Shown here: positions 2,639 through 37,788 of the stretch, piece by piece
How the letters are laid out: the number at the start of each line of letters is the position of its first letter
How positions within the stretch are numbered: position 1 is the stretch's first letter
Assembly: GCA_012035135.1 (NCBI GenBank)
Contig: JAAUPI010000024.1
Location: 1 to 37,788 of the forward strand
DNA from: Microcoleus sp. CSU_2_2
GTDB taxonomy: Bacteria; Cyanobacteriota; Cyanobacteriia; Cyanobacteriales; Microcoleaceae
Reading direction: 5' to 3'
Length of the DNA stretch: 37,788 nt
Notes under the pieces: generated by a model
Databases searched by the model: none
What the model was told of the DNA's origin: nothing
Seen by the model: only the letters and a program-made list of their open reading frames with translations
Translations under genes and position numbers: made by a program

Positions 2639-3372
2639 TGTCTACTAAATTCCCCAATATTCTCCCATTCCTCCTCCGAAAGCGGCTGCACCTCCAAATC
2701 AATCCCAAAACAACCACAAGCCGCCGCACTCAAAGCCTCGATCGCACTTTCAATAACCTCATTTTTCCCTCCCAAAAAAGGCAACTGCACCGGAACTAAT
2801 TCCTCCCCAAAAACCTCATAAAACAAACCAATATCCGATCGCAAACGCATCGAACCGTGCTGCAAAATAGCATCGCCCCGGCGCAATTGTGCGCTGCCAA
2901 TAAACTTACACCCATCAGGTGCCACCAAATCCGCACCCGTCGCAGTACCAAAACAATTAGGATTGCGAATGTAACTCCTTCCCGCTTCCCCGTAGTGCAA
3001 TTCCAAGCCCAAAGCCCTCCAACCCTGAATCAAAAACTCGCAAATAGTCTGATAAACAGCAATGCGATTCCCCACAAATCCCGACGCCACAACAGCATAA
3101 GTTAAATCCCCTTGGTGCAAAACTGCCCGCCCGCCACTGGGGCGCCGCACCAACTCCACAGGCATTCCCCCAAAAGATAACTGCTGCCAAAAGTCCGGCC
3201 AGCGGCGCTGGTGATAGCCCAAAGAAATTGCCACCGGCTGCCAAGTGTAAAATCGCAGAGTTGGCGGATGTTTCCCGGCTAGATGCTTCTCTAGCAGCCA
3301 CTCATCAATCGCCATCTGTACGCTGCCAGACGCTTGCAGCAGCGGAATTAGACGCCAAATAGAATTAGCCAT
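2617..3372 (-). CDS. Lipoate-protein ligase / octanoyltransferase family protein (LipM-like)
   Basis: 251 aa from the ATG at 3372, which has AGGAG eight bases upstream; a longer TTG-initiated frame to 3438 lacks support. Family motifs are RRPSGGRAVLHQGDLTYAVV (about 76-95), the lysine motif CKFIGSAQ (Lys156) and LQHGSMRL. Cys140 in NPNCFGTATGADLV sits where LipM-type octanoyltransferases keep their catalytic cysteine, so transfer of octanoyl from acyl carrier protein to lipoyl domains (pyruvate dehydrogenase, glycine cleavage H protein) is at least as likely as ATP-dependent lipoate ligation. The 3' end abuts the toxin-antitoxin debris and may have been reshaped by that deletion. It is divergent from the thioredoxin gene. 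Confidence 0.8.
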   Translation of the reverse strand: MANSIWRLIPLLQASGSVQMAIDEWLLEKHLAGKHPPTLRFYTWQPVAISLGYHQRRWPDFWQQLSFGGMPVELVRRPSGGRAVLHQGDLTYAVVASGFVGNRIAVYQTICEFLIQGWRALGLELHYGEAGRSYIRNPNCFGTATGADLVAPDGCKFIGSAQLRRGDAILQHGSMRLRSDIGLFYEVFGEELVPVQLPFLGGKNEVIESAIEALSAAACGCFGIDLEVQPLSEEEWENIGEFSRQTSISES

Positions 3373-3624
3373 TAGACATCTCCTAGAAAGAATCTCAAGC
3401 CGTTGGATAGATGTAGGGGGTACGCCGAGGGGCGACAATTTATACCGAAAACCCTCAATCTTATGTCCAAATGCTTCATCCTCTCCCGAACTCCTGAGTT
3501 TGCGATCGATAGTTGGCAGGATGTTTTAGAATTAATAACAGTCTTTTGAATCCGTCTTGTAAGTTCGTGTAATTCTTGCAGAGCCGCTGCTGTAGAAATA
3601 ATTAGGAAAAATAATTGTAGAATC

Positions 3625-3951
3625 ATGAGCAACAGTGTAATTGTCATTAACGACGAAAAATTTGAAACAGAAGTCTTGCACGCAGAGCAACCAGTGCTTG
3701 CTTATTTTTGGGCTAGTTGGTGCGGCCCTTGCAAGCTAATCGCACCTTCGGTAGACTGGGTAGCGACAAACTACAGCGATCGCCTGAAAGTAGTTAAAAT
3801 GGAAATTGACCCCAATCCCACTACTGTCAAGCAGTATAAAGTAGAAGGAGTGCCAGCACTCAGGTTGTTTAAAAATGCCGAAGTAGTGCTTTCCCACGAA
3901 GGAGCGATTACCAAACAAACTTTAATCGGTTTGTTAGACGCTCACTTATAA
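3625..3951 (+). CDS. Thioredoxin family protein
   Basis: 108 aa, one complete thioredoxin fold. The active site is WASWCGPCK (about residues 29-37), with the cis-proline loop VEGVPALRLF near residue 75. It reduces disulfides in target proteins in the cytoplasm, using electrons from a thioredoxin reductase. The sequence around the active site departs from canonical m-type TrxA (LIAPSVDWVATNY), so it is probably one of the additional cyanobacterial thioredoxins rather than the main one. It is transcribed away from the lipoate-ligase-like gene and precedes an aminotransferase by 232 bp of repeat-rich DNA, so an operon is unlikely. Confidence 0.9.
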   Translation: MSNSVIVINDEKFETEVLHAEQPVLAYFWASWCGPCKLIAPSVDWVATNYSDRLKVVKMEIDPNPTTVKQYKVEGVPALRLFKNAEVVLSHEGAITKQTLIGLLDAHL

Positions 3952-3976
3952 AGTTTTGAAATGATTCGGGAGTTTC

Positions 3977-4018
3977 CAACTCCCAACTCCCAGCTTACAA
4001 CTCACAACTTACAACTAT
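3977..4018 (+). repeat. Short heptamer tandem array (6 units, CAACTNN type)
   Basis: Six in-phase heptamers: CAACTCC twice, CAGCTTA, CAACTCA, CAACTTA, CAACTAT. They belong to the same short tandem repeat class as the arrays at 6393-6434, 6949-7095, 12036-12063 and 37698-37788. Confidence 0.7.
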
Positions 4019-4071
4019 AGCAATCGCAAATATTTTTTGAACATCTCTCTTTTCCCCTCAAGATTCCTATC

Positions 4072-4110
4072 TTTCTCTGCGCTCTCTGCGCTCTCTGCGG
4101 TTAAAAAATC
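4072..4110. repeat. Dispersed CTCTGCG-rich repeat
   Basis: Overlapping CTCTCTGCG units end in CTCTGCGGTT. The same repeat type occurs in frame inside the hydantoinase gene at 28236-28279. It lies between the thioredoxin and aminotransferase genes. Confidence 0.5.
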
Positions 4111-4183
4111 TTTCACAAATCAAAGAAAAATAATTCACCAATTATAAAAAGATTCATTAACATTCCAAAAGCCGACAAAAAAT

Positions 4184-5419
4184 ATGGAATTTTCACAACG
4201 TTTAAAACGACTGCAATTTAATGTATTTGCCGATATGGATCGAGCGAAATCTCTCGCTCGAACCGCCGGAAAAAATGTAATTGATTTGTCTCTCGGTTCT
4301 TCAGATTTGCCGACAGCGGGTCACATTACAGATACGATCGCCCTTTCTCTAACTGACCCCAAAACCCACGGCTATTTGCTGTTTAACGGCACGAAATCTT
4401 TCCGGGAAGCAGCAGCTATTTGGTACGAACAAAAATTTGGCATTTCAGTCAATCCCGAAACAGAAGTGCTGCCTTTAATTGGTTCCCAAGAAGGTACGGC
4501 GCATTTGCCTTTAGCTATACTCAACCCCGGAGATTTTGCTTTATTGCTCGATCCGGGTTATCCCTCCCACGCAGGCGGTGTTTATTTGGCTGGGGGGCAA
4601 ATTTATCCGATGCCACTGTTAGCGGAAAATGCTTTTTTGCCTGTATTTGATGATATTCCCCAACCCGTGTTAGCTCAGTCAAAGATGATGGTTTTGAGCT
4701 ATCCTCATAATCCGACAACTGCGATCGCACCTATTGCTTTTTTTGAGAAAGCCGTAGCTTTTTGTCGGGAAAACGAACTCGTTTTAGTTCACGATTTCCC
4801 CTATGTGGATTTGGTATTTGAGGATTCCGTAGGGGCAGTGTCCCCGTGCCCGTCCTCCGAGGAACAGCGAAAATTGATGGCGCCGTCTATTTTTCAAACC
4901 GATCGCGATAAAAGCGTGTCGATCGAGTTTTTTACACTCTCCAAGTCATATAATATGGGAGGTTTTCGAGTCGGATATGCGATCGGCAATTCTCAAATCA
5001 TAGAAGCACTGCGACAGGTAAAAGCCGTCGTTGATTTCAATCAATACCAAGGAATTTTAAATGGAGCGATCGCAGCTTTAACAGGCCCCCAAGACACGGT
5101 TAAAACCAGTGTAGAAACCTTCAGAAAACGGCGAGATGCCTTTGTCCATGCCCTGCAAGACATTGGCTGGCAAGTACCAATACCACCCGCCACAATGTAC
5201 GTTTGGGCGAAACTCCCGGAACCTTGGGCTTTAGATTCAGTAAAATTTTGCACTCACTTAGTACAAAGTACAGGAGTTGCAGCTTCCCCCGGTGCCGGTT
5301 TCGGGAAATCAGGAGAAGGTTATGTGCGATTTGCCTTAGTTGAGTCGCCAGAAATCTTGGCCGAAGCTGTGAGGAGAATTGCTGAATTTCAAGTCGCCTC
5401 TATCTCGAAAAGTGCATGA
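4184..5419 (+). CDS. Class I/II PLP-dependent aminotransferase (LL-diaminopimelate aminotransferase-like)
   Basis: 411 aa, complete fold type I aminotransferase. Motifs: GSQEGTAHLPLAILNPGD (about 100), LDPGYPSH, SYPHNPTTA (about 170), HDFPYVDLVF (about 203) and the PLP-lysine motif LSKSYNMGGFRVG (about 256). It most resembles the aspartate/LL-DAP/succinyl-DAP aminotransferase group; the substrate cannot be fixed from sequence. Between DLVFEDS and PSIFQTDRDKS it carries about 18 extra residues beginning VGAVSPCPSS, encoded by a GTAGGGGCAGTGTCCCCGTGCCCG repeat-type sequence at 4829-4858, an apparent in-frame repeat insertion. No clear Shine-Dalgarno is seen; the ATG was chosen because MEFSQRLKRLQFNVFADMDRAK is the usual start. 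Confidence 0.88.
   Translation: MEFSQRLKRLQFNVFADMDRAKSLARTAGKNVIDLSLGSSDLPTAGHITDTIALSLTDPKTHGYLLFNGTKSFREAAAIWYEQKFGISVNPETEVLPLIGSQEGTAHLPLAILNPGDFALLLDPGYPSHAGGVYLAGGQIYPMPLLAENAFLPVFDDIPQPVLAQSKMMVLSYPHNPTTAIAPIAFFEKAVAFCRENELVLVHDFPYVDLVFEDSVGAVSPCPSSEEQRKLMAPSIFQTDRDKSVSIEFFTLSKSYNMGGFRVGYAIGNSQIIEALRQVKAVVDFNQYQGILNGAIAALTGPQDTVKTSVETFRKRRDAFVHALQDIGWQVPIPPATMYVWAKLPEPWALDSVKFCTHLVQSTGVAASPGAGFGKSGEGYVRFALVESPEILAEAVRRIAEFQVASISKSA
4829..4858 (+). repeat. In-frame dispersed repeat encoding VGAVSPCPSS
   Basis: A GTAGGGGC(A/G)GTG(T/C)CCCCGTGCCC-type repeat inside the aminotransferase gene. The same repeat is read in the same phase inside the hydantoinase gene (29165-29194, minus strand), where it gives [10 protein letters not shown]. 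Confidence 0.65.
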
Positions 5420-5549
5420 TATCATGTCCGGTGAATTAACCTTAATTAGGGCTTGCTGAATAACTCCCAAACATGAGTTATCTAAGAATTCTAGCGAAGC
5501 GATTCCCGAAGGGAATCGCCCGTCAAGTTCGATCGACCTTCTGATACAA
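5420..5549. repeat. Repeat-bearing intergenic gap between convergent genes
   Basis: The gap between the aminotransferase and cysH contains AGGGCTTGCTGAATAA at about 5448-5463, a sequence of the sort seen at ends of cyanobacterial insertion sequences. It also contains a hairpin GCGATTCCC/GGGAATCGC near 5498-5519 that could end transcription from either side. No transposase is present. Confidence 0.35.
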
Positions 5550-6290
5550 TTAAGACTGATTTTGGACATTACCAGCGTGCAAACCACACTCTTTTAAAGT
5601 CGCTTCTTCCCACCACCAACGGCCTTCGCGTTCGTGTTGGTTGGGCAATACAGCCCTGGTACAGGGTTCGCAACCAATGCTGACAAAGCCACGTTCATGT
5701 AATTTGTTGTAAGGCACTTCTAAAGCACGAATATATTCCCAAACCTCTGCCGAAGACCAATTTGCTAAGGGGTTGAATTTGATTAATTGATGGTCTTCAG
5801 TTGAGAAAGCGCTGTCAATTTCAATCACAGGAATATGGTTGCGGGTGCTGGGACTTTGGTCTTTGCGCTGACCAGTAATCCAAGCATCGAGGGTATTCAG
5901 TTTGCTGCGTAGTGGTCTGACTTTTCTGACACCGCAACATTCTTTGTGGCCGTCTTGATAGAAACTAAAAAATCCCTTGGCTTCGACTAGGGATTGTACT
6001 TCCACCGGATCGGGGAACATCACTTCTATTTTGATGCCGTAATGTTCTCTGACTCGATCCAAAAACTGATAAGTTTCTGGGTGCAATCGTGCGGTATCAA
6101 GAGTGAAAACACGAAAGTCTTTGGTAATTTTTGAAGCAATATCAATCAGGACAACATCTTCAGCACCGCTGAAAGAAATTGAGATGTTGTCAAAGGTTTC
6201 TAAGGCAAATTTGAGAATTTCTCGTGGCGTTGTTTGACTGTACTTGGCTTCGAGGTCGGCAATATTTAAGTTGTTCTGGGTGGCGACCAT
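5550..6290 (-). CDS. cysH: Phosphoadenylyl/adenylyl-sulfate reductase, iron-sulfur type
   Basis: 246 aa from the ATG at 6290; a GTG-initiated frame to 6392 adds 34 residues unlike the family. It reduces activated sulfate to sulfite in assimilatory sulfur metabolism with thioredoxin as donor. Visible features are the nucleotide-binding [12 protein letters not shown] (about 39-50), DTARLHPET, the cysteine pairs ECCGVRK (118-119) and CEPC (207, 210), and the C-terminal catalytic ECGLH (Cys235). The two cysteine pairs are the ligands of a 4Fe-4S cluster, so this is the plant/bacterial APS-reductase-like form rather than the cluster-free E. coli type; whether APS or PAPS is preferred cannot be read directly. 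A heptamer array lies just upstream. Confidence 0.92.
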
Positions 6291-6392
6291 ATCTTCGTGT
6301 TCTCCGTGTTCTCGATCGTTGTTACATTTATAGGACTTATGCAACAGGTTCTGCGTCAGTCCCGCTTTAATTGTACTCGATCGAGGAGTCAC

Positions 6393-6434
6393 GTTGACAG
6401 TTGATAGTTGATAGTTGATAGTTGATAGTTGACC
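6393..6434 (+). repeat. Heptamer tandem array (6 units, GTTGATA)
   Basis: GTTGACA, four copies of GTTGATA, then GTTGACC, all in heptamer phase, between the cysH start and the aroH stop. Confidence 0.85.
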
Positions 6435-6531
6435 CTTCTACCTCAAAAAAAAGAATACCCAGATGCGAATTCTTAAAGAAGTCGGGCATCTAAAGTGCGA
6501 GATAGTTTAAGTCAAGTCAAAAGTGATTTTA

Positions 6532-6939
6532 TTATTTCTCCGCAGCCACGGCAACTGCTAAATTCCAATCCGGCCGCAAATTTTGAGCTCCCCGCAAATA
6601 AGGGTGATAAATATCAGTATGTGCTGGCCAATTGACATGAATTAAAAAGCGGATGCAACGTTCTAAAGCACCTTTGACGTGCATTTGCTGGACATCCAAC
6701 AGAGGAACATTGCACCAGTGCGGGCGTTCGCGAGCGATAGCAGCCGGAAAGACAGCATCTAAATCGCGAGTGGCAGAAAACGTAGCACTAATAATTAATT
6801 CTGGATTTAAATCATTTCTTGCTTCTAATTCATCTAATAATTCTTTCACCGCTTCTCGAATTGCTTCCACCGAATTATCGCTAGCAGTAGTTGCCCCACG
6901 AATACCCCGCACTTGCCACTCCACGCAAATTTCCTCCAT
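6532..6939 (-). CDS. aroH: Chorismate mutase, AroH type
   Basis: 135 aa, the size of the monofunctional trimeric AroH chorismate mutase. It converts chorismate to prephenate for phenylalanine and tyrosine synthesis. Family marks are WQVRGIRGATTASDNS (about 8-23), ATREELLDELEARN-like helix text, SATFSATRDLDAVFPAAIAR (about 51-70), the core PLLDVQQMHVKGALERCIRFL, and the C-terminal strand YLRGAQNLRPDW. The start ATG is followed at once by this family start, so it is well placed. It lies 160 bp downstream of sppA on the same strand, with a 21-unit heptamer array between the two genes. Confidence 0.92.
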   Translation of the reverse strand: MEEICVEWQVRGIRGATTASDNSVEAIREAVKELLDELEARNDLNPELIISATFSATRDLDAVFPAAIARERPHWCNVPLLDVQQMHVKGALERCIRFLIHVNWPAHTDIYHPYLRGAQNLRPDWNLAVAVAAEK

Positions 6940-6948
6940 TTTTTGTCG

Positions 6949-7095
6949 GTTGCTAGTTGTCAGTTGCTAGTTGTCAGTTGCTAGTTGTCAGTTGCAATTA
7001 CCGATTACCAATTACCGATTACCGATTACCGATTACCGATTACCGATTACCAATTACCACTGCCAACTGACTACTGCCAACTGCCAACTGACTAT
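6949..7095. repeat. Heptamer tandem array of 21 units filling the sppA-aroH gap
   Basis: Every base of 6949-7095 fits heptamer phase: alternating GTTGCTA/GTTGTCA (7 units), then TTACCGA/TTACCAA (9 units), then TGCCAAC/TGACTAC (5 units). The array starts 10 bases from the aroH start and ends 4 bases before the sppA stop. Short tandemly repeated heptamers are a known class in filamentous cyanobacteria. Confidence 0.9.
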
Positions 7096-7099
7096 TTAA

Positions 7100-7918
7100 T
7101 CACGGGCGATACATCCACAGCGGCAAGCCGCTGCTAGATAGCTCGAATTCCAGCCAATTCTTGTAAGCTGAAAGTCCCGATGTATCCAGACTACTCCCCA
7201 ATACCCGATTTAGGAAAGGTTTTGGTTTTTCGAGAGTGTAACATTCGGTTTTTTCCGGGTCCAGGCCTGCGAGTTCGGCTGTCCAGCGGCGGGCATCCTC
7301 TTCTGTTCCGAGTCTATCGACTACGCCCAATTCTAAGGCTTGCTGGCCGGTAAAAATACGGCCGTCAGCAAAACTTTTCACGTTTTCAACTGCCAATTTC
7401 CGGGCTTCAGCGACGGTTTCTACGAATTGCTGGTAGCTGGTGTCGATCAACTCTTGCAGAATTTGCTGTTCTGGTGTGGTCAATTCTCGATCGAACGCCA
7501 AGATATCTTTATACGGGCCAGATTTAATCACCTGAAAAGAAACGCCTACCTTTTCTAATAGCCGTTCTATATTGTTTCCCCGGATAATTACGCCGATGCT
7601 ACCGGTAATTGTACCCGGATTGGCAACGATATATTCGGCTCCCATACCGATGTAAACTCCCCCAGAAGCCGAGATATTCCCAAAACTGGCAACAATTTTG
7701 ATTTTTTCGCGCAAACGCTTGAGCGCGCTATAAATTTCTTGGGAATCGCCCACAGTGCCGCCGGGGCTGTCTATCCGCAGCAGCAAAGCGGGAAATTTAC
7801 GTTCTTCAACGGTTTTGAGGTCTTCTAGAACTCGTTTGCGGGTATCTCCGGCTATGGCACCGGTGATTGCGATGCGAGCAATTTGTTTGCGGTAGCGGGG
7901 CTTGAATGGCCAAATCAT
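7100..7918 (-). CDS. sppA: Signal peptide peptidase SppA (S49 family)
   Basis: 272 aa, the short single-domain form. Serine protease with a Ser/Lys dyad that degrades cleaved signal peptides at the membrane. The catalytic Ser85 lies in NISASGGVYIGMGAEYIVA, and the general base is Lys137 in KSGPYKDI. LLRIDSPGGTVGDS (about 46-59) and GSIGVI are also typical. No strong transmembrane helix is seen at the N-terminus, unlike E. coli SppA; cyanobacterial short forms often lack it. The start ATG and the initial MIWPF are usual for this group. A homologue in cyanobacteria has been linked to light-harvesting complex turnover, but that role is not shown by this sequence. Confidence 0.92.
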   Translation of the reverse strand: MIWPFKPRYRKQIARIAITGAIAGDTRKRVLEDLKTVEERKFPALLLRIDSPGGTVGDSQEIYSALKRLREKIKIVASFGNISASGGVYIGMGAEYIVANPGTITGSIGVIIRGNNIERLLEKVGVSFQVIKSGPYKDILAFDRELTTPEQQILQELIDTSYQQFVETVAEARKLAVENVKSFADGRIFTGQQALELGVVDRLGTEEDARRWTAELAGLDPEKTECYTLEKPKPFLNRVLGSSLDTSGLSAYKNWLEFELSSSGLPLWMYRP

Positions 7919-8320
7919 GGGCAGTTTACGGGCAATGTTACGAAATTTTGTAGCTAACTTCTAGTTTGCCTTATTTATCTCGGTAGATGTTGTTAATTCG
8001 CGTCGATCAGAACCGAGATGTTACACCTGAAGTAGAATGACTACAAACTTCGACCGCGAAAGTGCTGCTGGTGGGACAACTAATCGCTTTATCGCCCAAG
8101 AGGGTGAGAGGGGGAGAAGGGAGAAATTAGCGATCGAGTTCATAAACGGTTATATAGGAGTTACGCACTCCGACAAAGAAACCGGGTTTTTTACCGAATC
8201 TGCGGGCTGGAACGAAGTATTTTTCGTAAAAAAAACTGGTTTCTCGGACCCCATGCGTCAGTCCTAATTTATTACCCGATCGCACGTCTTGACACTCAAA
8301 AATATTACCTGCAACCATTC
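7919..8320. other. Gene-free gap holding a dispersed palindromic repeat
   Basis: 402 bp between divergent sppA and the VanZ-like gene. Most of it is unremarkable. At 8157-8265 it holds a copy of the dispersed element bounded by TTACGCAC/TGCGTMAGTCC ends with AGAAACCGGGTTTTTT and AAAAAACTGGTTTCT as internal inverted arms. No coding sequence is credible here. Confidence 0.6.
8157..8265. repeat. Dispersed element with AAACCGGGTTT arms (copy 1)
   Basis: Outer ends are AGGAGTTACGCACTCC and CCATGCGTCAGTCCT; inner arms are AAAGAAACCGGGTTTTTT and AAAAAAACTGGTTTCT. Related copies are at 21806-21898 and 30978-31163. Confidence 0.65.
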
Positions 8321-8716
8321 ATGAAACCATCAAACAAACCCTGGATTATCGCTTCCGTTGTCTATCTGTTATTTATTCTCAGCGTCATGCTCGTAGCAGA
8401 TCTGGGACTATTAGTCAACTTTTCTCTCGCTCGTCCGCCTTATGACAAACTCGGACACTTTATTTTGTATGGAATTGCATCGTTTTTGTTCCATAGAGCG
8501 AGTGGCAAGAAAACCATCAAACTATTTAATTATAAAATGCCGATCGGTCCTGCAATTTTTACTGTTTTCACTGCGGCAGAAGAACTACTGCAAGCAATTT
8601 TACCAAATCGTAGCGCTAGTATAGAAGATTTTCTATTTAGTTTTGCTGGTATTGTCATATTCTATGGAATTGGAGAAATTTGGGATAGAAAAAAAGCTAA
8701 AAAATCGGTAGGTTAA
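8321..8716 (+). CDS. VanZ-like family membrane protein
   Basis: 131 aa with about four hydrophobic segments (8-28, 44-57, 73-85, 102-118). The VanZ-family signature is DKLGHFILYGIASFL (Asp42, Lys43, His46), followed by EELLQAILPNRSASIEDFLFSFAGI, where the conserved Glu/Gln and the Asp in the R-x-x-S-x-x-D segment are kept. The family takes its name from a teicoplanin resistance gene, but the biochemical function of the cyanobacterial members is unknown. It stands alone between repeat-rich gaps. Confidence 0.8.
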   Translation: MKPSNKPWIIASVVYLLFILSVMLVADLGLLVNFSLARPPYDKLGHFILYGIASFLFHRASGKKTIKLFNYKMPIGPAIFTVFTAAEELLQAILPNRSASIEDFLFSFAGIVIFYGIGEIWDRKKAKKSVG

Positions 8717-16863: not shown

Positions 16864-16874
16864 TCTACTCGTTA

Positions 16875-17012
16875 CTAGGCTCTGCCTGGTAACGCAGATC
16901 CGGAGGCTCTGCCTCCGGGAGAAGACAAGGGAGGCAGAGCCTCTAGATATCGGTTAAGAGGCAGAGCCTAGGAACCAGTTAATTGTCGGGAAACGGCACT
17001 GCCGTGTCCTGA
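16875..17012. repeat. AGGCTCTGCCT repeat cluster and GGCACTGCCGTGTCC palindrome
   Basis: Four copies of the AGGCTCTGCCT / AGGCAGAGCCT unit alternate in orientation between 16880 and 16970, followed by ACGGCACTGCCGTGTCC at 16994-17010. Both types recur: the first in frame in the hydantoinase gene (29201-29249), the second at 21196-21215. It lies between convergent clpB and the small membrane protein gene. Confidence 0.65.
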
Positions 17013-26203: not shown

Positions 26204-29200
26204 CTACACAATAGTACCATAACCTCCGCCCCCCGGAGTCTCAATAACAAACACATCCCCCGATCGCATTTGCACACTCGCCGTACTCCCCAACTCCTCA
26301 ACATTTCCATCAAATCTTTCAACATAATTACGCCCAACTTTCCCCGCTTCACCGCCGTGCAAACCGCAGGGAGAAATCACCCGCCGCCCCGATAGAATTC
26401 CCGCCGTCAGATTCTCCAAAAACCGCATCCGCCGCACCACTCCATTACCGCCCCGATGACATCCATTCCCGCCACTATTTTCGCGAATTGCAAAACTTTC
26501 CAACAACACCGGAAATCGCCATTCTAATACTTCAGGATCGGTTAAACGCGAATTAGTCATGTGAGTTTGCACCGCATCTGTGCCGTCGAAATCTGCACCA
26601 GCACCCGAACCGCCGCAAATTGTTTCATAATATTGATAGCGGTGATTTCCAAATGCGAAATTATTCATGGTTCCTTGGGAAGATGCGATCGCACCCAGAG
26701 CACAATACAAAGCATCCGTAATATTCTGCGACGTTTCCACATTTCCCGCAACCACCGCCGCCGGATAGCGCGGATTCAGCATACAGCCTGCGGGATTGAT
26801 GATTTCCAGAGGCTTCAAGCAGCCCGCATTCAGAGGAATATCGTCATCTACCAAGGTGCGGAAAACATACAACACAGCCGCTTTACACACCGCAGCCGGA
26901 GCATTAAAATTGTTGAATTGTTGGGGAGAAGTGCCAGTAAAATCAATTTTTGCACTGCGCGCCGACTTGTCAATTGTAATAGCTACCTTAATCTGTCCGC
27001 CGCTATCCATCGGATAAGTAAACTCGCCGTCAGTCAAAACCTCAATTACCCGCCGCACCGACTCCTCAGCATTGTCTTGCACAAAACCCATATAAGCTTG
27101 CACTGTTTCCAAGCCGTAATGTTCTACCATTTTTAGAAGTTCTGCTAAACCGCGATTGTTGGCAGCAATTTGGGCTTGCAAATCAGCGAGATTTTGTGCG
27201 GGATTGCGAACCGGGAAATCCCCTGCTGTGAGAATTTGCAGTAATTCTGGTTCTCGGAATTTCCCCTCGCTTACTAGCTGGAAATTGTCCAGCAATACGC
27301 CTTCTTCAGTGACTATTTTACTATTCGGAGGCATGGAACCGGGAGTGATGCCACCGATGTCGGCGTGGTGTCCCCGCGAGGCAACATAAAACAAAGGAAC
27401 CGAAGAAGTCTTATCAAATACTGGAGTAATTACAGTGATATCTGGTAAGTGCGTGCCGCCGTTGTAGGGATTGTTAGAAACATAAACATCGCCCGGTTGA
27501 ATTGTATTGCTTTGTGCTAAGATTAAAGCTGCAACACTTTCGCTCATCGAACCGAGATGCACGGGAATGTGCGGCGCGTTGGCAACTAATTGCCCGTTTT
27601 TGTCGAAGATTGCGCAGGAAAAATCGAGGCGTTCTTTGATGTTGACGGAGGAACTCGTATTTTGCAACGTGACGCCCATTTGTTCGGCGATCGCCCGAAA
27701 TAAATTATTAAATATTTCTAGCAAAACCGGATCTAATGCAACCGCAGATAAACGCGAATGAACGCGGATTTTATCAGCGTCCATCTGCGTGCATCTGCGG
27801 TTCAAAATTAGATCGTTCTTGGCAGTAATTTGCCCTTCCCAAACAGGCTCTATTATATTAGTCCCAGTTGCTTCAACAATTATCGCTGGGCCGCTGATGT
27901 AATCGTTCGATCGCAAATCGTCTCTTTGATAAACAGGCGTTTCCCGCCACTCACCAGCAACATACATTTGCACGGTGGAAATTGGCTGCACGGGCAAAAT
28001 TCTCCTGTCACTTGAATTGGAAATTATCGACTCATCCGGCACATCCATTGTCTCGACAACTTCCACCGAAACCGCTTCGACAATTAGCGCTTTGTCCGAC
28101 ATGATAAAACTGTACCGCTGTCGGTGCGCTGCTTCAAAATCAGCCTGTATCTCCTCAATACTGCCAACAAAACTCACCATCAAAACCGAATCGCTTCCCT
28201 GATATTTGAGATGCAGCTTCCTAACAACCAAAACCTCTTTCTCTCCCTCTGCGCCCTCTGCGCCTCTGCGGTTCAATTCCCTCTTTCCATCTACCTCTAA
28301 TTCGGCTAAAATAGAAGCCAAATCAGCGATTAATTCTGCATTTAATAATTGCTCGATCGCCCTTTCGCGCATAGCCCGCACATCAGCCAAACCCATACCG
28401 TAGGCAGATAACACGCCCGCGTAAGGATGAATAAACACCCGTTTCATGCCCAAACTATCGGCGATCGCACAAGCGTGTTGCCCGCCCGCACCGCCGAAAC
28501 AGCACAAGGTATACTCGGAAACGTCATAACCGCGCTGAAGCGAGATTTTTTTCACCGCATTAGCCATCTTCTCGACTGCGATCGCCAAAAAACCCTCCGC
28601 CACCTGTTCCGGCGTCTTGTCGCCTCCAATTTCCCGCGCTAATTGCACGAATTTTTGCTTTACTACCTCAGGTGCGATCGGCAAATCTCCCTGCAATCCA
28701 AACACCTTCGGGAAAAAATCCGGTTGAATTTTGCCCAACATCACATTACAATCAGTCACCGTCAAAGGCCCGCCTTTCCGATAGCAAGCGGGGCCTGGAT
28801 TTGCGCCCGCAGACTCCGGCCCGACGCGGTAGCGAGCACCGTCAAAAAAGACGATCGAACCGCCACCGGCTGCTACAGTGTGAATTGCCATCACGGGCGA
28901 TCGCAATCTCACCCCGGCAATTTCTGTCTCAAATTTGCGTTCGTATTCGCCGTTAAAATGAGCAACATCTGTCGAAGTTCCGCCCATATCAAAGGTAATA
29001 ATTTTATCGAAACCAGCTTTTTTACTGGTTTGAACTGCACCGACAATTCCCCCAGCCGGGCCGGACAAAATACTGTTTTTTCCTTGAAATTTGGCGGCAT
29101 CTACTAAGCCGCCGTTTGACTGCATAAACATTAATTTAGGGAATTGGGAATTGGGGGTTATCGAAGAGGGCGGGCACGGGGGCACCGCCCCTACATTGGC

Positions 29201-29980
29201 CTCGTTCCCAGGCTCTGCCGGGGAACGGATATCCAGAGGCTCTGCCTCGATTAATTCACTGGTTAGTTGTTCGACATAACGGCGTAAAATAGGAGATAAA
29301 TAAGCATCTACAACCGCAGTATCTCCCCGCGAAACTAATTTCATCAGCGGGCTGATTTCGTGAGATACTGAAATTTGAGTAAAGCCAATTTCTCTGGCTA
29401 TTTTAGCAACTTGTTTTTCGTGTTCCGAGTAGCGGTAGCCGTGCATGAATGCGATCGCACAACTGCGAATTCCCTCGTTATACGCTTGCTGCAAAGACGG
29501 GATAAAATCCAAATTAACAGCAGTTAACTCTTCGCCTGTAGCGCTGTAGCGTTCTGCAACTTCGATCGCTCGATCGTACAGCATCTCTGGTAAAATGATG
29601 TGGCGGGCAAAAATCTGCGGGCGGTTTTGATACCCAATTCTCAAAGCATCGCCAAAACCTTTAGTAATTAGCAAAACAGTTCGATCGCCCTTTCTTTCCA
29701 GTAAAGCATTTGTCGCTACCGTCGTCCCCATTTTAATCGCTTCAATTTGGGCGGATGGTATCGATTCCCCGGCCCGAATTCCTAAAATATCGTGAATTCC
29801 TTGAACTGCCGCATCTGTGTATCGATCGGGATTTTCTGACAGCAATTTGTGAATGATTAATTTACCATCGGGGCTTTTAGCAACAATATCCGTAAAAGTA
29901 CCACCGCGATCGATCCAGAATTGCCATTGAGTGCGATCGGCAAAAACAGCATTCATATCTTGATACTGGATTTTTTGCAT
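26204..29980 (-). CDS. 5-oxoprolinase / hydantoinase, fused A and B subunits
   Basis: 1258 aa, complete. The HyuA half (about 1-760) has [28 protein letters not shown] and [13 protein letters not shown], the ATPase signatures of the ASKHA fold. The HyuB half (about 770-1258) has [38 protein letters not shown] and HLGSMSESV, and ends in TPGGGGYGT. It hydrolyses 5-oxoproline to glutamate with ATP (glutathione turnover) or a related cyclic amide. Four stretches look like in-frame repeat insertions rather than protein sequence: [10 protein letters not shown] and [10 protein letters not shown] (29165-29249), [13 protein letters not shown] (28236-28279) and [21 protein letters not shown] (27740-27802). 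They fall between conserved blocks, so activity may survive. It is followed by nothing obvious, with the M28 peptidase gene 83 bp upstream. Confidence 0.92.
27740..27802. repeat. In-frame 63-bp palindromic repeat in the hydantoinase gene
   Basis: Perfect 10-bp ends AACCGCAGAT and ATCTGCGGTT bound a segment of exactly 21 codons. The interior has the ACGCGGATT/TCAGCG repeat type; a related sequence lies intergenically at 30001-30050. Confidence 0.75.
28236..28279. repeat. In-frame CTCTGCG-type repeat in the hydantoinase gene
   Basis: CTCTGCGCC units ending CTCTGCGGTTCAA, similar to the intergenic copy at 4072-4110. Read on the minus strand it encodes [13 protein letters not shown], a low-complexity segment between conserved blocks. 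Confidence 0.65.
29165..29249. repeat. Two adjacent in-frame repeats in the hydantoinase gene
   Basis: 29165-29194 is the GGGCACGGGGGCACCGCCCCTAC type, also found in the aminotransferase gene. 29201-29249 is the AGGCTCTGCC type, with a CGTTCCC/GGGAACG hairpin, also found after clpB. Together they encode about 30 residues between [12 protein letters not shown] and [12 protein letters not shown]. Confidence 0.7.
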
Positions 29981-30063
29981 AATTTTTTGATTGATATATC
30001 TACCGCAGATGAAAGGCAGATGGACACAGATTAACGCAGATAATTTTAAATTAAATAAAATTG

Positions 30064-30977: not shown

Positions 30978-31163
30978 CACTTACGCACGGGTGGCGAGAA
31001 ACCGGGTTTTTACGAAAATACTTCGTGACAGTACACAAACTCGGAAAAACCCGGTTTCTTTGACTGTGACGAGTGTCCAGAAACCGGGTTTCTCTGAAAA
31101 TATTCGTTGCGACGTGCAGATTCGCGAAAAAACCCGGTTTCTTTCGTCGGAGTGCGTAATTCC
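30978..31163. repeat. Compound AAACCGGGTTT element (copy 3, four arms)
   Basis: Bounded by CACTTACGCAC and AGTGCGTAATTCC. The arms alternate in orientation: AGAAACCGGGTTTTT, AAAAACCCGGTTTCTTT, AGAAACCGGGTTTCT and AAAAAACCCGGTTTCTTT. It reads as two elements of the type seen at 8157 and 21806, fused or nested. Confidence 0.7.
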
Positions 31164-31178
31164 TCTGTATGAGTACCT

Positions 31179-31275
31179 GTAGGGGCGAAGCATTTGCGAG
31201 ATAATCTGTAGGAAAAAACCGGGTTTTGTGACGCAAATGCTTCGCCCTTTGCGAGTACCTGTAGGGGCGAAGCAT
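31179..31275. repeat. GGGGCGAAGCATT inverted repeats with a nested AAACCGGGTTTT
   Basis: GTAGGGGCGAAGCATTTGC and GCAAATGCTTCGCCC flank an AAAAACCGGGTTTTG core, followed by a second GTAGGGGCGAAGCATC. The same GGGCGAAGCATT arms occur inside the MITE-like element at 21226-21347. Confidence 0.65.
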
Positions 31276-34892: not shown

Positions 34893-35162
34893 CTAGGGAA
34901 ACCATACCCACAAACCGTAACTCATCTGAATTGCTACCAATATTAGCAAAAAATTCAGTAGAGCGATCGCCCCTACTCCTCTCCAAATCAACTTGAAAAT
35001 TTCACAGCGACGCACCATACCAAATAGCGTAGGGTGCGTCGCCATCGATTCTCTCCAAATCAACTTGAAAATTTCACAGCGACGCACCATACCCAATAGC
35101 GTAGGGTGTGTCGCCATCGATTCTCTCCAAATCAACTTGAAAATTTCACAGCGACACACCAT
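34893..35162 (-). CDS. Doubtful small membrane protein with a triplicated N-terminus
   Basis: An 89-codon frame. The C-terminal 29 residues (GVGAIALLNFLLILVAIQMS, then YGLWVWFP) would make one good membrane helix, ending just before the methyltransferase leader. The N-terminal part is the 72-bp tandem repeat read three times as CEIFKLIWR...MATHPTL. If real, the original protein was probably about 35-40 residues and began within the last repeat copy. No ribosome site decides the start, and it may be only a repeat-derived open frame. Confidence 0.25.
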   Translation of the reverse strand: MVCRCEIFKLIWRESMATHPTLLGMVRRCEIFKLIWRESMATHPTLFGMVRRCEIFKLIWRGVGAIALLNFLLILVAIQMSYGLWVWFP

Positions 35163-35165
35163 ACC
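34979..35165. repeat. 72-bp tandem repeat, 2.6 copies, with a GGGTGCGTCGC palindrome
   Basis: Copies start at 34979, 35051 and 35123 (CTCTCCAAATCAACTTG) with an exact 72-base period and very few differences. Each contains GCGACGCACCATACC and AGGGTG(C/T)GTCGCC, the same inverted pair seen at 8729 and 11972. In copies 2 and 3 paired changes (TGTGTCGCC with GCGACACACC) keep the hairpin complementary. Confidence 0.9.
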
Positions 35166-35178
35166 AATACGACAAACC

Positions 35179-37131
35179 TTAGATTTTGAGCACGCCTTCA
35201 GGAGTCACGGTGAAGAGCGATCGCCTCTGCAAACCCTCCCGATATAAAATAGCATTAGCTGCCAATAAACCGCTGCTAACCGCCCTTTCCATTAAACCGC
35301 AAGGAAACGGCATTTTTACCCAATCTCCCGCAAACAAAAGATTGGGAACGCCGCAGCAAGTCTCCGGCCGTTCCGCATAACTACCGGGCGGATAACCGGA
35401 GAAATTCTTTTGATTTACGAGTTCCCGGTGCAGCATATTTGCCGACTTTAATTCCGGCACGATTTCGTACAATTCTTGCTCGAAAGTAGCAAGCAAAACC
35501 TGCTGGTTCGGGAATTCTTTCTCCTTGTAACAGTAAGCGTGTAATTCCACTACACTGCCACCAGTTTTCTGATTCCACTCGATAAATTGATCCTGAATCC
35601 GGTGGTAAAGCGTAATGCTGTCAGTGAGTTTGTAGCCGGAAAGCGAAGTGAAATTGCTGTGTTCCCAGGGAAATTCTCGATCAAACCAAAAACGGCCCAC
35701 CGCAAACGGATCGGCTATTTTCAAACTCTCGATCCGACTCTGTACTTGGGGATTCACCTCACCGCTTGCCAAACTAAACAAGTGCTGCATCCCCGGAACA
35801 TCGGCAGCAAAAACATAGTAATCTGCCTTCACCGTTTCCCCCAAAAGTTGGGGCTGCAATTTGCTAGTAGCGGCTGCCAACTGTACCTGATCTTCTTTTT
35901 TGGCAACCACATTAAATCGCGGCAAATCCCGCTGCGCTGGCCCGCTCACAACTTGACCCTCAGCATCAAAAACTGCTCCGTGACAAGGACAGTGAAATTG
36001 ACCGTCATTCTGCTTCTGAACCGTACAACCTTGGTGAGTACAAGTCAGAGAAATCGCCTCTTTTCCCTCCGGTACCGTGGCAAATACGCTATCCCCAGCG
36101 CCAAAATATTCTGTAGAGTTACTATCATTTAAAAGCGAGTTTCGCTTCACCCAAAAAGGTGCGTTACTTCGCACATCTCCCGATTGGTAACTCAGAGAAT
36201 CAATCTGACCGTTTTCCCAGTGAATGCCACTAACTGCGACATCTGTTAATACTTTTCCACCTTTACTTTCAATCGATCTGGCAATTGGCTGCACCAAACT
36301 AGTACCCATATCTTGCCGGGTACCGTTGAATGCCAAACCTTCGGGATTACCGAAAAAATAGAAGTGGAAGAATTGCATTAATTCTCCCACGCTCAATTCG
36401 TCAGGAGAGTTAAGACTGGACTTTGCAAAAGGCAGAAAATACAAGTCGTAAAGCCCGCGCGGAAATTCATCTTTTACCCAATCGGCAACTGATATATTGT
36501 CGAGTCGATCGAAACTTTTTTGAGTTTGAAAACCGCCGATTTCTCGAAACACTTGCCAGTGAGCGGGTTTAGTCAGATCTATTCCCCATTTCATCCAGTT
36601 GGGAGAAGCTATCCCCAAGTCCACGACATTCCAAGGAAAAGCTGAATGGTTGGGGCGGAAGACTTCTGGTTTGTACTTGCCATTTCTAAATACAACGGCA
36701 TAGGATTCTAAAGATACAAAATTCTCAGTAATTTCTAGTTCTTTTACCACACTTTTGAGGTTGTAGTATTGCGGAAAAAAACCATGGAAACCATGTTCCA
36801 TCATAAAGGTTTCGTTCCCCACTTGAATCGGCCAACTAGCAATTTTGCCACCGAGTTGGGGCGATTTTTCCAACAGCGTCACGGCAAAACCCCGCTGGCA
36901 CAGTTCGTAGGCACAAGCAAGCCCTGCCAAGCCACCTCCGACAACTGCAACGGTTTTGCGAGTGGAAAGCAGCCGCGGCAAGTCAAGGGAGTCTTGCTGA
37001 AAAACAGTTGGCTGTGGCTTAGAAAATCGAGAGTAGCCTAGCAGCCCGCCGGCGGCACCGACTCCGAGGAATTTGAGGGCTGTTCGTCGAGAAACTGGCA
37101 CAGGTAGCGGTGAATTGGTTGATTGACTCAT
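35179..37131 (-). CDS. cruE: Tat-exported carotenoid desaturase with internal Rieske domain (CruE/CrtU-like)
   Basis: 650 aa. A twin-arginine signal (SRRTALKFLGVGAAGGLLG, Arg15-Arg16) precedes the FAD-binding fold VAVVGGGLAGLACAYEL (61-77). The scaffold is that of phytoene/zeta-carotene desaturases (EHGFHGFFPQYYNL, AGDWVKMPFPCGLMERAVSSG). A Rieske domain is inserted: CTHQGC (Cys364, His366, Cys369) and CPCHG (Cys381, Cys383, His384), with the extra cysteines typical of high-potential Rieske clusters. CruE and CrtU convert beta- or gamma-carotene to aromatic-ring carotenoids by desaturation and methyl migration. From memory this fusion occurs there, so the symbol is tentative. The Rieske oxygenase and methyltransferase genes lie 1 kb downstream on the same strand. 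Confidence 0.75.
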   Translation of the reverse strand: MSQSTNSPLPVPVSRRTALKFLGVGAAGGLLGYSRFSKPQPTVFQQDSLDLPRLLSTRKTVAVVGGGLAGLACAYELCQRGFAVTLLEKSPQLGGKIASWPIQVGNETFMMEHGFHGFFPQYYNLKSVVKELEITENFVSLESYAVVFRNGKYKPEVFRPNHSAFPWNVVDLGIASPNWMKWGIDLTKPAHWQVFREIGGFQTQKSFDRLDNISVADWVKDEFPRGLYDLYFLPFAKSSLNSPDELSVGELMQFFHFYFFGNPEGLAFNGTRQDMGTSLVQPIARSIESKGGKVLTDVAVSGIHWENGQIDSLSYQSGDVRSNAPFWVKRNSLLNDSNSTEYFGAGDSVFATVPEGKEAISLTCTHQGCTVQKQNDGQFHCPCHGAVFDAEGQVVSGPAQRDLPRFNVVAKKEDQVQLAAATSKLQPQLLGETVKADYYVFAADVPGMQHLFSLASGEVNPQVQSRIESLKIADPFAVGRFWFDREFPWEHSNFTSLSGYKLTDSITLYHRIQDQFIEWNQKTGGSVVELHAYCYKEKEFPNQQVLLATFEQELYEIVPELKSANMLHRELVNQKNFSGYPPGSYAERPETCCGVPNLLFAGDWVKMPFPCGLMERAVSSGLLAANAILYREGLQRRSLFTVTPEGVLKI

Positions 37132-37697
37132 AAAGGGGGTTAAACAAAATAGGTCATCTGTTGGTTGAAGGCAGGCACAATTTAGAGACGCAGAAGGTAC
37201 GCCACAGAATCAAAAATTATGACGAATGCCTTCTGACGAATGGCTGCGGAAGGGGCAGACGCCATAAGCCATATATCATAGAGCTTAAAACATGATACGT
37301 GAAACTCCCCTGACATCAAGGGGAAGGGATTTTTGGTTCAAATCAGACTGGGGAGTGCCAACTCATCTGTCAATCCAGAAAGTAGTGGCTAGCCAATATT
37401 TTACTCTCCCTAAGCGATAAGTTCCCGTATGCCCTAACATACAGTTCACAATTATTCCCCTCCTGATTCAGTCCTTTTTTGCAATATTCAATTTCGCTCT
37501 ATGCCCGATCGATAGATTAGATCGATCGCAAATAATCTATCTTAGGTATGATCTTTTGTGACGCTGATGTAAAGTTATGTGTAGCCTCGATCGCACCCCG
37601 GCTCTAAAATCTCCCACCTAAAATCTAAAGTAATTGATCAAAGTGCCCCGATTGGCTGCTAGAAAAAACCGATTTTAAAAAGGGCGATAAGTTACTG
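37132..37697. other. Gene-free leader region of the carotenoid enzyme gene
   Basis: About 570 bp without a credible ORF. GATCGATCG/CGATCGATCG-type sequence occurs near 37508-37527. The first 200 bases contain AGCTTAAAACATGATACGTG and CTGACATCAAGGGGAAGGG stretches with no repeats or genes that I can name. A promoter for cruE presumably lies here but was not located. Confidence 0.4.
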
Positions 37698-37788
37698 ATT
37701 ACCCATTACCCATTACCCATGACCCATGACCCATGACCCATGACCCATTACCCATTACCCATGACCCATGACCCATTACCCATTACCC
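37698..37788 (+). repeat. Heptamer array of 13 units in two variants, cut by the window end
   Basis: Exactly 13 units fill 91 bases, each either ATTACCC (A) or ATGACCC (G), in the order A A A G G G G A A G G A A. No other variant or spacer occurs. The array continues past the end of the window. Confidence 0.9.

Follow-up and report, generated by a model that had tools for sequence, protein, structure and literature searches.

Small repeats that enter protein genes in frame have been described before. According to the available part of a survey of GTAG/CGTC REPs (PMC3733652), these elements lie mostly between genes, and some sit in frame in conserved genes, among them DNA repair genes, DNA ligase and tRNA synthetases, with double insertions and with different REPs at about the same site of recB in two Xanthomonas species. 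GTAG is the start of a known REP super-family, and REPs are reported from cyanobacteria with no in-gene copy named there, again as far as the available part goes (PMC3733652). Likewise, Rickettsia palindromic elements (RPEs) insert in frame into conserved protein genes, and at least one host enzyme (Gmk) is translated and active, as stated in the accessible portion of that work (PMC2229807). As REPs, including REPs in DNA repair genes, and RPEs within conserved genes are already in print, this kind of event is itself known. What is less familiar is that one gene hosts several families, that loops are re-used across lineages and that a composite is always read in one frame. A literature search, covering sources available in part, returned no account of repeats lying in frame within genes of cyanobacteria, which is a weak negative. 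Very small repeats of cyanobacteria, said to be possibly mobile, were reportedly treated by Elhai et al. in 2008 and would resemble the present ones in both respects.

The gene analysed here occupies 26204..29980 on the reverse strand of the window, by which we mean the whole 37,788-nt stretch of Microcoleus sp. CSU_2_2 DNA. It encodes a HyuA-HyuB fusion of 1258 aa, 5-oxoprolinase/N-methylhydantoinase-like on the basis of its Pfam domains (Hydant_A_N, Hydantoinase_A, Hydant_A_C and Hydantoinase_B; PF05378, PF01968, PF19278 and PF02538) and PDB relatives (7hk5 and 6yra), and is labeled OPLAH for short; no NCBIfam model matched it above cut-off. A preliminary description had placed four repeats in frame in this gene, and all four were found at their positions, open in the OPLAH frame; a fifth, the GGGAATT heptamer, had been overlooked. 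Loop A contains F2 (AGGCTCTGCC type; 29201..29248, reverse strand, 94% to the F2 consensus over 48 nt), coding for residues 245-260, beside F1 (GTAGGGGCGGTG type; 29168..29195, reverse strand, 100% to consensus over 28 nt), read as VGAVPPCPP, the two forming a composite that is followed by the heptamer (F5; 29139..29155, residues PNSQFP), which is longer in relatives. F3 (CTCTGCG type; 28243..28276, reverse strand, 91% over 35 nt) encodes 12 residues in loop B of HyuA, and F4 (27740..27802), an imperfect palindrome with 48 of 63 positions self-complementary, supplies 21 residues of the linker (C2) joining the HyuA and HyuB halves.

Each of the four stretches has copies elsewhere in its own genome beyond chance, so that they are dispersed repeats, as had been proposed. 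Self-matches included, the palindrome gave 19 matches at 17 places (best foreign E 3.9e-9), the CTCTGCG type 20 (best foreign E 2.0e-9) and site A (29138-29250) at least 68, with the best 40 of 279 candidate stretches scored (best foreign E 6.1e-23). The additional claim that the matches within the window lie outside genes held for three families: a window repeat search detected an F2 pair in opposite orientations outside genes (16868..16978, REPIN-like), an F3 copy lies outside genes at 4071..4105 on the reverse strand, and an F4-like copy lies just upstream of OPLAH at 30016..30041 on the forward strand. It failed for F1, whose sole other window copy found (4829..4855, forward strand) is in frame (VGAVSPCPS) within an LL-diaminopimelate-aminotransferase-like gene (4184-5416). 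The window also carries a 72-bp tandem repeat of 2.5 to 3 copies holding the GTAGGGTGCGTCGCC repeat (34979-35194), arrays of 7- and 14-base units such as ATTACCC, ATTACCG and TTGTCAGTTGC (6943-7080 and 37684-37781), and a dense cluster of the AAACCCGGTTT repeat (F8) outside genes (30987-31240).

Ten Y1_Tnp matches were detected in the genome, and F2 adjoins one of them only, with inverted copies 35 bp upstream and 27 bp downstream of the gene. Compared with NCBIfam, a search run for this Y1_Tnp locus alone, the flanked gene matched NF047646, the REP-associated tyrosine transposase (RAYT), with 110 bits against a cut-off of 80. This arrangement makes F2 a probable REP of the RAYT-mobilised kind, and this RAYT would be the enzyme that moves it. 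F2 is moreover a short palindromic repeat present at 40 or more places, mostly outside genes; its consensus contains no GTAG, and no GTAG/GTGG-type tag lies beside the hairpin. It is F1 that begins with GTAG. At the ten Y1_Tnp loci, no F1, F3, F4 or F5 copy was found beside a transposase, save weak F5 matches near two Y1_Tnp fragments. The flanking of a RAYT gene and the inverted partner no more than 200 bp away at 17 of the 40 F2 places among the matches listed are features shared with REPINs and their RAYTs, as described in the available part of PMC3116915, whereas none of the six in-gene F2 copies among those 40 places has such a partner (Fisher 0.03 for single versus paired copies, a value that includes the window picked for its repeats and is not relied on). 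The likeness to RPEs that had been suggested holds for the effect, since the repeats here also lie in frame in conserved genes; F2 itself is nearer to a RAYT-linked REP, and the units are shorter than the RPEs of PMC2229807, in its available part, and occur as several families in one loop. No insertion event was seen, and no target-site duplication was identified.

Repeat positions were compared with gene positions in a sample of 613,498 bases of the genome's own sequence (457 genes predicted with a simple gene caller, 79.8% coding). F1-F4 are rarer in genes: of their 62 places 8 fall in gene interiors, where the coding share would predict 49.5, the in-gene count being slightly low because an F3 copy in a histidine kinase was missed. 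F5 occupies gene interiors at 6 of 19 places (15.2 expected), F2 at 2 of 28, and F7 (0/24) and F8 (0/18) at none in this sample. OPLAH holds four of the eight in-gene F1-F4 places; the corresponding probability for clustering in one gene, 2.4e-7, derives from a sample that includes the window picked for its repeats and is not relied on. Among the 20 F3 matches, three have a coding context (the window, the histidine kinase at C15 and the alanyl-tRNA synthetase AlaS at C287), in two different frames. F4 shows coding signal on both sides at the window copy only, out of 17 places, and F1 lies within two further genes of the sample in another orientation or frame.

We put the probability at roughly 0.78 that REP-type repeats insert widely and that in-gene copies last only in tolerant loops. 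In such a scheme F2, probably through its RAYT transposase, F1 as a GTAG-tagged hairpin, and also F3, F4 and the heptamer, would insert genome-wide. Selection would remove most insertions within genes, leaving in-frame copies at a limited number of sites, in surface loops or linkers, where added residues are tolerated. Such loops being few, different families would strike the same ones repeatedly in one lineage and another, and the inserts would later be duplicated in tandem and trimmed; OPLAH would carry most repeats since it has several such loops. As the window was chosen for its repeats, independent support comes from the relatives.

The OPLAH gene is present, whole or in part, in 27 of 29 genomes of the genus, and an OPLAH match was obtained in 57 of 61 genomes of the family, which includes Planktothrix; G022 was dismissed as a carrier, its match being due only to a repeat in another gene. 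Across 53 aligned rows (leaving out the fragments of G012 and G058, G031 with stops, G038 with two frames and the genomes without the gene), length varies at fixed places, namely loop A, loop B, C1, the linker C2 and D; in relatives these loops hold other repeats or tandem expansions, or stay empty. PPL(x)KGG-type peptides are found in g10, the group of Planktothrix paucivesiculata, and tandem copies of GTGILPV in the C1 loop of several g1 genomes. Loop B of Nostoc sp. FACHB-280 holds an F3-type repeat and a heptamer of its own, both repeated in that genome (at least 28 own-genome matches, itself included, with the best 40 of 132 candidates scored). The Planktothrix-group linker, with six own-genome matches including itself and one in the same gene, is a weak case.

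Tandem growth of these loops was also observed. The C1 loops of L081 (G006) and L082 (G028) hold a GTGILPV-containing unit in tandem, with up to six copies in G006. The long OPLAH open frames of L072/G056 (2207 aa), L059/G040 (1872 aa), L062/G042 (1814 aa) and L068/G043 (1771 aa) have 468-751 residues of tandem repeats in loop D of the HyuB half; an intein was rejected as the cause of loop D in these four genomes, as the sequence consists of tandem repeats. At L132 (Kaiparowitsia implicata, 3001-8409) the OPLAH match spans 5.4 kb, with 17 stops when read straight through, so that something long interrupts it.

The preliminary description had framed the phenomenon around a single gene, a framing that the data do not support: the repeats also lie in LigA, RecJ, RqcH, AlaS, a histidine kinase, an aminotransferase and others. 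From the 29 genomes of the genus, 23 OPLAH, 27 RecJ, 27 RqcH and 28 LigA loci could be compared, the rest being missing or cut. Listed elements (F1-F6) occupy loop A of OPLAH at 18 of 23 loci, RecJ at 13/27, RqcH at 7/27 and the second loop of LigA at 6/28, and in the last three the congeners carry, at the corresponding position, F1, F2, reversed F1 or a short loop. When loop A was mapped on the OPLAH core tree of the genus, with labels assigned by hand and three genomes not counted, F1 needed four changes and F2 five, gain and loss not being distinguishable. In LigA (G001-G028) the matches also break near query residues 107-150, where a further variable loop may lie.

F2 and F1 each occur alone and also joined as a composite of about 84 bp. 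Consequently, they need not represent two separate insertions, and the claim of several unrelated families in a single gene stands for the families, with the qualification that these two also travel as one. Searching with the whole of loop A located the composite at seven places of the genome: the window, C155, C254, C353, C15, C264 and C318, the last with two weaker copies outside genes; the C15 copy overlaps the 3' end of a predicted 282-aa gene. Five of the seven places are in long open frames flanked on either side by coding signal, in OPLAH, LigA (C155), RqcH/NFACT (C353), RecJ (C264) and a 622-aa protein (C254) without Pfam match. In all five genes the F2-F1 order is the same and the composite is read in one same frame. 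By comparison, F2 alone was clearly within a gene at one of 24 further loci examined (C228), in the frame of the composite genes (Fisher 0.0007 for composite versus F2 alone in genes, which includes the window picked for repeats and is not relied on). A further in-gene F2 was found in the 765-aa frame of L114, in the 613-kb sample. The open frames of L204 (171 aa) and L221 (277 aa), which contain F2 in another frame, were set aside because upstream coding signal was absent or weak.

These observations bear on two related ideas, both of which we consider unlikely. One is that elements home to palindromes or loops, or that recombination copies loop DNA between genes and so spreads the same-frame composite. 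The other, held equally doubtful, is that the composite is a mobile unit adapted to genes, which in this one lineage spread into loops of at least five proteins (three of which serve DNA repair or ribosome rescue) with orientation and frame unchanged throughout, placed by phase-specific insertion or loop-to-loop copying and not by selection only. Targeting would account for the identical order and frame at each occurrence, for the restriction of the composite to the window's genome (1/23 OPLAH, 1/28 LigA, 1/27 RecJ and 1/27 RqcH loci) and for the presence of F4 at the same linker codon start in L118, from another family (93% over 30 nt). However, F2-F1 spacers vary between genes, the composite sites share no flanking gene sequence, and F1 appears in either orientation in the RecJ loop. 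We infer that loop tolerance, rather than targeting, causes the clustering.

F2 reads EAEPxx(L)xxQ/PAxPGNE in 7/7 of the genome's own genes found with F2 inside. This constancy in seven genes, together with an F3 loop recognisable in many congeners, would be expected if the added peptides tuned the enzymes and were kept by selection, a proposal we regard as improbable to a far greater degree than targeting: loop content and length vary widely in one genus, and many relatives whose genes are intact lack the inserts. Each of the six F2 frames is open. The frame of F1 in use (VGAVPPCPP) is the least hydrophilic one, and a simple hydrophilic filter thus does not explain it.

Outgroup homologues were aligned at 77 of 80 loci (57 non-cyanobacterial and 20 cyanobacterial rows; L132, L136 and L137 were left out for stops). 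The inserted residues, expected to be missing from repeat-free homologues if the preliminary description was right, are indeed missing, with 246-280, 578-581 and 734-740 absent in at least 80% of the 57 non-cyanobacterial rows. In these rows loop A has a median of 4 residues (range 4-51) against 39 here, loop B 17 against 21, and C2 16 against 23, the last being no longer than the cyanobacterial median (24.5, 20 rows). A large net gain is thus found at site A only, the F3 and F4 loops being just 4 and 7 residues above the non-cyanobacterial median. In AlphaFold models, insert A (247-277) and residues 573-578 and 737-746 have pLDDT below 50, and loops A, B and C2 are all modelled with low confidence (mean pLDDT 70.0 for the HyuA half and 84.5 for the HyuB half); as conserved stretches 88-98 and 111-133 are also below 50, low confidence constitutes weak evidence.

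Decay of the gene, or inserts arising as assembly errors, could be suspected from the state of the assembly (84% complete, 357 contigs) and from the stops in a few relatives. Nevertheless, dN/dS of the OPLAH core against 20 congeners ranges from 0.127 to 0.157 (median 0.144), so the core is under purifying selection, and open frames with in-loop repeats are also present in relatives assembled into one to six contigs (G003, G027 and G028). On these grounds a pseudogene or assembly error was rejected as extremely improbable. The repeat-encoded peptides presumably stay in the finished protein.

Compared with the intragenic REPs in the available part of PMC3733652, the present elements are alike in being small palindromes, mostly intergenic and in some cases in frame, with F1 sharing the GTAG start. 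They differ in the several unrelated families per gene, in loops refilled across genera, in the one-frame composite and in the cyanobacterial host. The loops constitute a natural insertion scan, revealing where the enzymes accommodate between 10 and several hundred additional residues as purifying selection acts on the core. Moreover, with filled, differently filled and empty sites in one genus, together with a candidate transposase, a clear test of REP-type entry into genes is possible.
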